This document shows, piece after piece, positions 19,250-49,307 of a stretch of 64,000 nt of DNA; the first letter of the stretch is position 1, and the number at the start of each line of letters is the position of its first letter. The DNA is from Saccharofermentans sp. (GTDB lineage Bacteria; Bacillota; Clostridia; Saccharofermentanales; Saccharofermentanaceae). A program made the translations under genes and the position numbers. The stretch lies in the NCBI GenBank assembly GCA_016288885.1, contig JAEFAV010000003.1, positions 62,001-126,000 of the forward strand. Reading direction: 5' to 3'. Below the pieces are notes generated by a model. That model saw only the letters and a list, made by a program, of their open reading frames with translations, ran no database searches and was not told where the DNA came from.

Positions 19250-19426
19250 ATATAACACCTCCTTATACAACGCTTATAGGCTTAGAACTGCTTTTTCAAG
19301 CGTTGTTACCATAAATACAGATGCCGGTGAGAAAATGTTGCAGTATTTTTGAAAATATTTTTTCCTTGATTTGAACAAAGCCGAGTGTTAGCATTGTCGG
19401 GATTAAGTGATTCAAGGAAACGGATA

Positions 19427-20194
19427 ATGAGTTATTTGTATGAGACACATCTCCACACCTGTGAGGCCAGCAGATGCGGCAGGGTCCACGGTGAAGATTA
19501 CATCCCTTATCTGATGGATAAGGGCTATAGCGGAATGATCGTTACGGAACATTTTTTTAACGGCAATTCATGCGTGCCGGAGGATCTGCCCTGGAAAGAG
19601 AGAATTGATATCTATGCTTCCGGTTATGACAGAGCTCTGGAAGCTGCCCGTGGCAAGGACTTTAACGTTATGTTCGGCGTGGAGTTCAATTTCCAGAAAG
19701 ACGAATATCTTCTCTACGGGATAGATAAAGAGTGGCTTATCAATAACGAATGCATAATGGAGATGACTAGGCATGAACTTCTTAAAGCGGTTCACGAAGC
19801 CGGCGGCATCATGATCCAGGCTCATCCTTTCAGAGAAAGAGATTATCTGTCAGATATAAAGCTTGCTCCTACCGCTTGTGACGGTATTGAAGTTTATAAT
19901 GCTGCAAACATGCCGAACATGAATGCATTGGGCTATGAATACTGTGTTAAGCTCGGCCTTCCCATGACAGCCGGATCGGATATTCATTACTTCCACAATG
20001 AAGCAATGGGCGGAATGCTTTTCGAGAACAGGATCGGTTCGGTTCAGGATTATGCGGAAGCTGTCATGAAGCGTTCAGGCATTCCGGTATCCTTAAGTCC
20101 CGACGGTACGATCACACCTGTTTCGCAAATGACAGAACAGACTGTGTCAACAGCTCTGCCGACACTTCCGGTTCTTTATCCTGAAGGAAAGTAA
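19427..20194 (+). CDS. PHP-domain metal-dependent phosphoesterase
   Basis: YETHLHTCEASRCG, MIVTEHF, IMIQAHPFRERD, TAGSDIHYF. Confidence 0.85.
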   Translation: MSYLYETHLHTCEASRCGRVHGEDYIPYLMDKGYSGMIVTEHFFNGNSCVPEDLPWKERIDIYASGYDRALEAARGKDFNVMFGVEFNFQKDEYLLYGIDKEWLINNECIMEMTRHELLKAVHEAGGIMIQAHPFRERDYLSDIKLAPTACDGIEVYNAANMPNMNALGYEYCVKLGLPMTAGSDIHYFHNEAMGGMLFENRIGSVQDYAEAVMKRSGIPVSLSPDGTITPVSQMTEQTVSTALPTLPVLYPEGK

Positions 20195-20302: not shown

Positions 20303-20579
20303 TACCCACCAAAATGCATTTTTGCTTGTTTTAGTGGGTGTGTTTTTGAGGTTAAGGGACGTGGTTACCCACTAAACTCGGTTTTTTGGGGGTTCTAGTG
20401 GGTAGTCCGGATAGCGAAAACTAAAATTCCTGATAGCGGATACCCACTAACTTTGGAAACTTTGCACTTTAGTGGGTAAAGCATGCCTTTCGAGAAGAGA
20501 AATATACCCACTAATGACCTGTTTTTGGTGAAGCGGTGGGTAATACCCACGATAATGCGAAATGGCGTTTTAGTCGGCA
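20303..20579. repeat. TACCCACTAAA inverted-repeat array 1 (5 units)
   Basis: Units at 20303-20340, 20366-20404, 20441-20478, 20505-20542 and 20544-20579 (last degenerate); each TACCCAC(T/C)AA(A)..loop..TTTAGTGGGTA; lies between convergent genes. Confidence 0.9.
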
Positions 20580-20612: not shown

Positions 20613-22193
20613 TTATTTCTCCGGTTTTAAAGTCATGGCGACGGTTGCCGTATCGAGCCATGTATTAAGATTTGCCCGTCTGACATAGAGACTCGTGATT
20701 ATGACGCTGTTGGGGCGGATCTTATCGGTCGGTCCCGGGGCAGGGGCAACGAAAGAACCCACTGCACTGATAACATACGGCACATCGTCCACGGTACCGA
20801 GATATATCATCATGTGTCCTGGGAATGAAATCAGGCTGCCGGGAGCAAGACCTGCGATCTCGGCCAGTTTCTCATCTTCATTCATTTCACTTAAGTCAGC
20901 TTTGTAGATTCCCGTAGAATTGGACTGGCCGACGCGGGGCAGGAGGACGCCGAAGCAGCGGTATATCTCCCTGGTGATGCCTGTACAGTCATTTGCCTGA
21001 AGATCACCGCCCCAGCCGTATCTGTCACCCAGAAGCTTGAAAGCCTGTCTGACGATATTTGCCGGAGTCAGTGGAAGGTATCCGACATGAACGTCATCTG
21101 ATATGGGGATCAGAACATATTCGTCCTCTATGTATCCGTCAGATCCGCGCGTAGGAATCTTGACCACATAATCGCCGTATGTGGTGCGCTGATTGATAAC
21201 ATCGGGTGCTTCGTCAGCGGAGACCAACTCCATCTGAGTGCCCATCGGTAATACGAGGTCGGTGGTAGCAGGGCTGTAAGGATCATTTCCGAGCCTGATC
21301 TCGCGCGCGGTGACAACAAGCCACTGTTCCGGATTCTGTCTCGCCACCCAGTCATCCCTGTTCCTGCAAAGTGCGACGGCATCTTTTCTTACCCATGCGG
21401 CATAACTGTCGAAAACGACATAGAGATATTCGCCGTCAACGCTCTCATGGAGTACTACACATGGCATGTAAGGCATGCATTCTGAATAAAGAATGTAATC
21501 ATAATATTGATCATCCGGTCCGTCGAAAACACGGTCCTCGGTAGGGAACATTCTGAGGGTCATTCTTTTTACAGTATACGCATACTGAACAGTGATCTCG
21601 TCTTCTACTGCATCGATGTTCGAAAGGTCTATCAGGTTCCGCCAGTATAGGTAGTCGGTGCGTGAGCCGTCAAGATAGTAGCGGGGAGGATAGTCGGGGA
21701 TCGAATTGGCGCAGTCATTGAGGAATGTCCTTAAGATATCGCCGTCCAACTTATCTCCGAATTCGTCAAGATGGGGATAGACAGTCTCGCCGTCACGTGC
21801 TTTGATAATGCCCCTGTTCTCGAGATTAAATGCCTTTATCTCTTCCGGTTTCATGAGGATTATGTTGTCATTATCGCCGATCCAGTAATCCGCATTCATC
21901 ATCTCGGCACTGACGCCGTCAACGGTTCTGACATATGCAGTATCAATTTCCGAAGAATCGGATGCGGTCTCAAAAGTGTTTTCCATATTTTCAGTTCCGG
22001 TCGTTTCCATGGTGGTTTCTGTTGTAGTTTCGATGGTTGTTTCAGTGGCGGTTTCCGATGTTTCAGCTGCAGGGATCGTCGGAAGGCTGGTCTCCGCATT
22101 TGCGTCGGTGAATTGGCTGCAAGAACATAAAAGCGCAGTTGCCGTTGATAAAGCTAAAACAGCGGAAATGGTTTTGTGTTTTCTATATTTCAT
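20613..22193 (-). CDS. SH3-like + NlpC/P60 endopeptidase lipoprotein
   Basis: GDRYGWGGDLQANDCTGITREIYRCFGVLLPR...GSLISFPGHMMIYLG; lipobox LLCSCSQ. Confidence 0.85.
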   Translation of the reverse strand: MKYRKHKTISAVLALSTATALLCSCSQFTDANAETSLPTIPAAETSETATETTIETTTETTMETTGTENMENTFETASDSSEIDTAYVRTVDGVSAEMMNADYWIGDNDNIILMKPEEIKAFNLENRGIIKARDGETVYPHLDEFGDKLDGDILRTFLNDCANSIPDYPPRYYLDGSRTDYLYWRNLIDLSNIDAVEDEITVQYAYTVKRMTLRMFPTEDRVFDGPDDQYYDYILYSECMPYMPCVVLHESVDGEYLYVVFDSYAAWVRKDAVALCRNRDDWVARQNPEQWLVVTAREIRLGNDPYSPATTDLVLPMGTQMELVSADEAPDVINQRTTYGDYVVKIPTRGSDGYIEDEYVLIPISDDVHVGYLPLTPANIVRQAFKLLGDRYGWGGDLQANDCTGITREIYRCFGVLLPRVGQSNSTGIYKADLSEMNEDEKLAEIAGLAPGSLISFPGHMMIYLGTVDDVPYVISAVGSFVAPAPGPTDKIRPNSVIITSLYVRRANLNTWLDTATVAMTLKPEK

Positions 22194-34827: not shown

Positions 34828-34863
34828 TACCGATTAATTTTTCAAATCCCGAAATAATCGGTA
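34828..34863. terminator. Terminator-like hairpin immediately before repeat array 2
   Basis: TACCGATTA...TAATCGGTA perfect 9-bp arms. Confidence 0.5.
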
Positions 34864-35123
34864 AGCATACTAAATGCAGAAATTAGGGCTTTAGTGGGTA
34901 TGAAGTGCTTTCAATTTTGATTATTTTTCTGGAAGTTACCCACTAAAATATTATATTTGTATTTTAATGGGTAGTAATTGCCTTCCCGTAGTCCATTACG
35001 CCCATTCAAATACCCACTAAAACCGCGAAAACGCTCTTTAAGTGGGTAAATACTACTCTTCAGAATCCAAATATCTGCAAAAGAATACCCACCAAAACAA
35101 TCAATTCTGCATTTTGGTGGGTA
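34864..35123. repeat. TACCCACTAAA inverted-repeat array 2 (4 units)
   Basis: Units 34864-34900 (left arm degenerate), 34937-34973, 35011-35048 and 35086-35123; lies between convergent genes. Confidence 0.9.
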
Positions 35124-49046: not shown

Positions 49047-49307
49047 TGCCCACCTGCAGCCTGATTAGCATGTTTTAGTGGGTTTTAGAAAAGGCTATGA
49101 ATCATTTTAAAAGCTCAAACTACCCACTAGAGTCGTAGTTTTACGGTTTTAGTGGGTATCTTTTTGGCAGGATTATTTCTTTTGATTGATAAAACTACCC
49201 ACCGGAATCACCAATAACCATTTTTAGTGGGTATTCTCTCGAAATAACAAGTTCGTTATAGGTATAGATTACCAACTTAATCAATATTTTCGGCATTTTA
49301 GTAGGCT
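49047..49307. repeat. TACCCACTAAA inverted-repeat array 3 (4 units)
   Basis: Units 49047-49084, 49121-49158, 49196-49233 and 49270-49307 (last degenerate); successive starts 74, 75 and 74 bp apart. Confidence 0.9.

Follow-up and report, generated by a model that had tools for sequence, protein, structure and literature searches.

The array of inverted repeats that we call array 1 is one case of a family-wide system of intergenic dyad arrays, in which the helical phase of the units and their count of four are conserved and the arm sequence is free to differ. We propose, with a probability of about 0.5, that the units bind dimers of a sequence-specific protein and that four such dimers make up one phased, BIME-like complex at gene ends. 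RAYT transposases and RNA hairpins are the usual explanations for intergenic palindromes in bacteria, and the tests described here contradict both accounts.

Arrays in the window

The window is the whole 64-kb stretch of DNA that was analyzed. The preliminary description of array 1 had given five units of 36–39 nt between convergent genes, unit starts 63, 75, 64, and 39 bp apart, an abutting junction GTGGGTA-A-TACCCAC, and two further arrays, and the coordinates agree in all these respects (Table 1). A better reading of array 1 is that units 1–4 (63-75-64) form a set of four, against which one further unit of mixed type abuts; cassettes of different type abut in the same way at L028, L031, and L032. 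The extra TACCGAT-type dyad of array 2 was not caught by the motif of the preliminary description; a similar dyad adjoins the array of L049. Half-site matches in the window number 25 against 12.2 expected, and none of 100 shuffles reached 25, so the arrays are not due to chance. An unbiased dyad-array scan found three arrays in the window, whereas Markov-shuffled sequence totaling 764 kb gave only two clusters.

Table 1. Units of the three arrays in the window and the genes that flank array 1 (positions in the window).
Feature	Position	Strand	Remarks
Array 1 upstream neighbor	19385–20194	+	Weak PHP-domain match; context only
Array 1, unit 1	20303–20340	.	38 bp
Array 1, unit 2	20366–20404	.	39 bp; step 63
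Array 1, unit 3	20441–20478	.	38 bp; step 75
Array 1, unit 4	20505–20542	.	38 bp; step 64; fourth of the set of four
Array 1, abutting fifth unit	20544–20579	.	36 bp; left arm TACCCAC, right arm GTCGGCA (TACCGAC type)
Array 1 downstream convergent neighbor	20613–22193	-	SH3_6 + NlpC/P60; context only
Array 2, whole	34828–35123	.	
Array 2, extra dyad	34828–34863	.	Another arm type (TACCGAT-type; TACCGATTAA...)
Array 2, unit 1	34864–34900	.	Left arm degenerate
Array 2, unit 2	34937–34973	.	
Array 2, unit 3	35011–35048	.	
Array 2, unit 4	35086–35123	.	
Array 3, whole	49047–49307	.	
Array 3, unit 1	49047–49084	.	
Array 3, unit 2	49121–49158	.	
Array 3, unit 3	49196–49233	.	
Array 3, unit 4	49270–49307	.	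Arms degenerate

Sets of four in the same genome and in relatives

The preliminary description had suggested a scan of the whole genome and relatives, and further copies are present in both. The genome of the window, from a rumen-type bacterium, is a 3.0-Mb draft in 56 contigs with 5.8% contamination, in which genes were called from open reading frames alone. Half-sites, exact or with one mismatch, cluster at ~14 further places in it, and some of these clusters have the arm TACCGAC in place of TACCCAC. An 11-mer search of this genome was noisy (40/43 versus 32/27 for the reversed control), and array counts were therefore taken from paired arms, for which there were 17 matches and none in the reversed control. 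Relatives were sampled as stretches of genome. The TACCNACTAA motif occurs in 18 of the 117 family genomes, in four of five genera, and a class-wide sample of 394 genomes gave no match outside the genus of the window. Matches in a scan of 85,488 species came mostly from rumen-type Ruminococcaceae/Clostridia MAGs and from the isolate YAD3003. Relatives also combine this geometry with different arms (~20 types examined), the unit ends being TACC..GGTA, TATC..GATA, TTGA..TCAA, and others. Dyads TACCCACAGA..TCTGTGGGTA and ACATCCACTTT..AAGTGGATGT with 74-bp steps are seen in a Bacillota MAG (L041, 4091–4603), so the system may extend beyond the family.

The set of four is the dominant form. Among 30 TACC-type arrays of several genomes, 21 have four units, five have three, two have five, and two have two. 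A second type, with GTATCGAAAA arms, is represented in the relative G005 by 52 exact units; 10 of the 15 arrays examined have four units and four have five, and steps of 53-51-53 recur almost unchanged. Cassettes with different arms abut with a gap of ~2 bp: four TACCCAC units are joined to four TACCTAC units (L028/L055), to four TACCGAC units (L031), or to TACCGTCCCA units (L032/L057). We count the dominance of sets of four and the recurring 53-51-53 spacing in favor of dimer sites.

Several smaller observations concern single units and neighboring elements. At L088 (4135–4357, G068), three near-identical 74-bp tandem units lie beside older, diverged ones, directly showing that whole units are duplicated as arrays grow. 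A single GTATCGAAAA dyad is conserved, with the same 37-mer, between two species (L191 7289, G005:C2:328288; L192 7119, G020:C8:23118) upstream of a gene for a 105-aa membrane protein. It is near a promoter-like TATAAT in G005 and is the sole such unit in G020. When it was considered as the operator of a cognate gene, its neighbors proved to be the membrane protein and a methyltransferase-like gene. Three copies of TATGAAATGACCT are present in the genome of the window, each at or near a contig end (L046 6250–6275, L047 5374–5395, and G000:C19:107–119), and two of the copies are within or beside TACCGAC units, which suggests a repeated insertion element sitting in arrays. In the same genome, a palindrome like CATACCCCCACGGGGTATG adjoins TACCGAC-type units (L042 ~5860, L047 ~5310, and L054 ~5910). 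On C44, TACCCACTAGA matches occur in isolation and do not form arrays. One of them, unrelated to arrays, is at L050 (G000:C44), where two near-identical genes for short hydrophobic peptides (~6230 and ~13206) lie ~7 kb apart; the peptide gene is on the minus strand, reads about MNDYEILIVVLTIIAIVVTLIIEYIKK, and has a terminator-like hairpin, and the arrangement looks like a type I toxin–antitoxin pair.

Helical phasing of the steps

The spacing was examined in ~1.3 Mb of the genus with a scan in which arm and step were left unfixed (8-base arms, at most one mismatch, step 45–125). Steps fell at 50–54 (34 cases), 61–67 (20), and 72–76 bp (35), with double steps at 101–106 (11) and few between. 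The first three classes correspond to 5, 6, and 7 helical turns between unit starts, which supports the phasing suggested for array 1. The same scan of 764 kb of shuffled sequence gave the two clusters already mentioned. Two outgroups at the order level (G037 and G040) together with the family member G125 gave one cluster in total, and class-level outgroups (209 kb) gave three AT-rich chance clusters with steps of 70, 108, and 117. In another genus of the family (g20, 112 kb), three likely arrays have steps of 62 or 52/62. When ~20 arm types were measured singly, with the register set by eye for some and not all types evolutionarily independent, units were mostly 34–39 bp, most had a central A/T tract, and steps were 51–53, 63–65, or 73–75. 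A pooled circular statistic has a broad optimum at ~11 bp, and the phasing therefore rests on the three separate step clusters. These clusters are common to genomes and arm types, and together with the ~20 arm types on one scaffold they speak for dimer sites.

Arms and loops

Arms are as alike between unlinked arrays (identity 0.835) as within arrays (0.845), as the preliminary description had noticed for the window. Loop identity is 0.386 within and 0.323 between unlinked arrays, 0.334 being expected from column composition, and that of the 26-bp spacers is 0.310 and 0.286. Since arms are alike and loops and spacers are near chance between unlinked arrays, the arms are conserved in trans. The loops had been described as random. 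Their identity is near chance, but their composition is not random: over 98 units, A/T content is 82–95% at positions 8–11, 91–98% at 18–21, and 81–96% at 28–31, with G/C-richer gaps. The center of the unit, on the dyad, is AAAA or TTTT with about equal frequency. Such a strand-symmetric A/T pattern with a 10-bp period would be expected of a double helix that is bent or bound on one face. The conservation of arms against near-chance loops and spacers and the A/T maxima on the dyad are both counted for dimer sites.

The preliminary description had offered a paired protein site or a stem-loop. Selection on a paired site is borne out, but the stem-loop is not. In 36 units of the same genome, 85.9% of arm cells are paired versus 86.3% after shuffling, and no covariation or compensatory change rises above the shuffled level. 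Summed over positions, left and right arms deviate together 13 times versus 13.6 expected under independence. In one orthologous unit (L059 versus L026), both sides changed together, which counts against dimer sites. Equal arm conservation within and between arrays, near-chance loops, and the lack of covariation, which is also counted for dimer sites, indicate that the arms act like half-sites read in double-stranded DNA rather than like a stem under selection to pair.

It is accordingly improbable that the arrays are transcribed as tandem stem-loops in 3′ untranslated RNA for termination, 3′-end protection, or protein binding, and we regard this alternative as weak. The inverted arms are able to pair, the arrays are at gene 3′ ends, mostly no terminator is found between gene and array, and one relative (G024) has a conventional terminator at the locus orthologous to array 2. 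On the other hand, deviations that break pairing are common in the arms, there is no obvious reason in RNA for helical-turn spacing or for a strand-symmetric A/T tract, and the stems have neither the short loop of an intrinsic terminator nor, in general, its T-run. Of 78 gene ends with an array, 17 already have a terminator before it, a share similar to that at other gene ends (43 of 255); arrays are thus not a general substitute for terminators, nor do they always lie beyond them. Assignment to an RNA stem-loop family was rejected on the shuffled-level compensatory changes and on Rfam, in which no array in the window is matched and one tRNA alone reaches the gathering score.

Functionless tandem duplication, in which hairpin-templated repair (quasipalindrome correction) would keep the arms similar, is very improbable and already disfavored. 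It would agree with the young arrays that are plain tandem repeats and with the one paired change at L059. It leaves unexplained the same arms in unlinked arrays with randomized loops, the modal count of four, the quantized steps across arm types, and the independent variation of the arms.

Genomic setting and turnover

Of 42 arrays, 18 are in convergent, 20 in co-directional, and four in divergent gaps. Convergent gaps are enriched (18/42 versus 55/385 in the background; OR 4.5, p = 3e-5), which we count for dimer sites, and divergent gaps tend to be avoided. Turnover at orthologous loci is evident. The array is absent in a relative in three comparisons (L035 versus L113, L113 versus L143, and L114 versus L164), and different arm types occupy the same locus in three others (L058 versus L088, with flanks ~94% identical; L057 versus L068; L052/L033 versus L089). 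Arrays are stable between closely related genomes (L055 versus L174), and an orthologous array is conserved in G028 and G100 despite flanks that are merely 84–89% identical, a further point for dimer sites. At L113 (7546–7960, G005), composite nested palindromes of the AAGTCGGGC and AATACGGC types with steps of 63–64 bp are more complex than simple dyads and are missing at the same locus in G007 and G100.

Gain, loss, and swap of arrays fit selfish DNA as well and are counted against dimer sites. The main rival, and a serious one, is that the four-dyad set is a selfish, non-autonomous mobile cassette whose arms are sites for a trans-acting recombinase or transposase; each arm type would follow its own enzyme, and the 3′-intergenic bias would reflect survival in harmless places. 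We hold this to be a distinct but minority possibility. In G005, one four-unit type is dispersed in ~18 copies whose loops are homologous but diverged and whose flanks are unrelated; relatives have empty sites; arm types are swapped at one locus between G028 and G068; one unit is common to unlinked arrays; and some young arrays are tandem amplifications. Against this, old copies with randomized loops retain intact arms, which indicates selection in place and not decay. No target-site duplication is seen by eye, no enzyme was found flanked by arrays, RAYT is absent, and selfishness alone does not explain the central A/T tract in the loops. An autonomous element flanked by arrays was considered at L200 and rejected, since only ordinary genes are present there. 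Selfish mobility and dimer binding could both hold, because copies of one four-unit cassette are dispersed in G005.

Search for a partner protein

The RAYT-like transposase proposed in the preliminary description as a partner is absent: PF01797 had no match in six array-rich genomes (G000, G005, G008, G068, G100, and G063), and controls were positive. HU/IHF genes number one to four, with no paralogue expansion to match the arm types in number, and neither their counts nor those of tyrosine-recombinase genes follow array richness. No obvious expanded family of DNA-binding genes was seen in the sampled stretches. No cognate protein was found among the genes surveyed, which counts against dimer sites, as do the many arm types in one genome (G005), which would need many specificities. 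No phage or plasmid homologue of array 1 was found, and no paper describing the arrays was found in the open-access literature searched.

Proposed mechanism

Here, we propose a mechanism based on the geometry and the location of the arrays. In each 34–39 bp unit, a sequence-specific DNA-binding protein would bind the double helix as a homodimer, with the two ~10-bp arms as half-sites. The A/T tract on the dyad may be a bend point or present a narrow minor groove. The units, usually four and 5, 6, or 7 turns apart, would place four dimers on one face of the DNA, and these would form one complex at the 3′ gene boundary, chiefly between convergent genes. Going by location only, the most likely role is architectural or insulating, affecting topology or blocking read-through as BIMEs do. 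The specificity for the arms probably drifts and splits between lineages, so that relatives and different arrays would have different arms on the same scaffold. Constant geometry combined with a site sequence that differs among species and among arrays points to an undescribed protein–DNA structure.

A broader version, in which one dimeric protein class radiated into many specificities across the family, each marking its own four-dyad gene-boundary arrays, is rather unlikely on present evidence; with a strict scaffold and free arm sequence, it would be a multi-specificity boundary system unlike described bacterial repeats. The arrays predict phased dimers on one face of the DNA. If true, this would give a new model for DNA organization between convergent genes in bacteria and for genome-wide replacement of DNA-binding specificity.

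Comparison with known systems

The preliminary description recognized no published repeat, and this stands in view of Rfam, the literature, and the features compared here. Bacterial interspersed mosaic elements (BIMEs) have among their features the binding of DNA gyrase, IHF, or Pol I. The arrays share with BIME/REP elements the intergenic location 3′ of genes in convergent or unidirectional gaps, array formation, species-specific types, and regularly spaced, alternating inverted motifs. They differ in lacking a covarying stem and in their sets of four, 5/6/7-turn steps, and central A/T tract. MITEs and BOX elements resemble the arrays in being short, dispersed, and non-coding and in combining internal repeats with inverted ends. 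The arrays differ in that their ends are the internal arms and no parental element was identified; empty sites are present in relatives, with no clear target-site duplication visible by eye. Centromere and iteron arrays (parS, plasmid iterons) are likewise phased and repeated protein sites, putative ones in the present case, whereas our arrays occur by the dozen per genome at gene ends with many specificities. CRISPR arrays resemble them in a regular ~64/74-bp period and a palindromic-ended repeat of 36–38 nt. Membership was rejected, since CRISPR has near-identical repeats and variable spacers, whereas the interior of the "repeat" here varies at near-chance identity; units are usually four, loci are many, and two arm types can abut.

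REP elements, or repetitive extragenic palindromes, carry at one foot a GTAG or CGTC tag (PMC3733652). Neither tag nor a Y1/RAYT gene accompanies the arrays, judging from unit ends and from the array-rich genomes, and REP/REPIN membership was rejected on these two features. REPINs, which are REP doublets mobilized by RAYTs, have conserved inverted ends with a variable interior, several types per genome, and dispersed copies (PMC3116915), all of which the arrays share; the arrays have four dyads in place of one doublet, with steps quantized in helical turns. The missing RAYT and tag lower the claim of membership and leave a BIME-like mode of working untouched.
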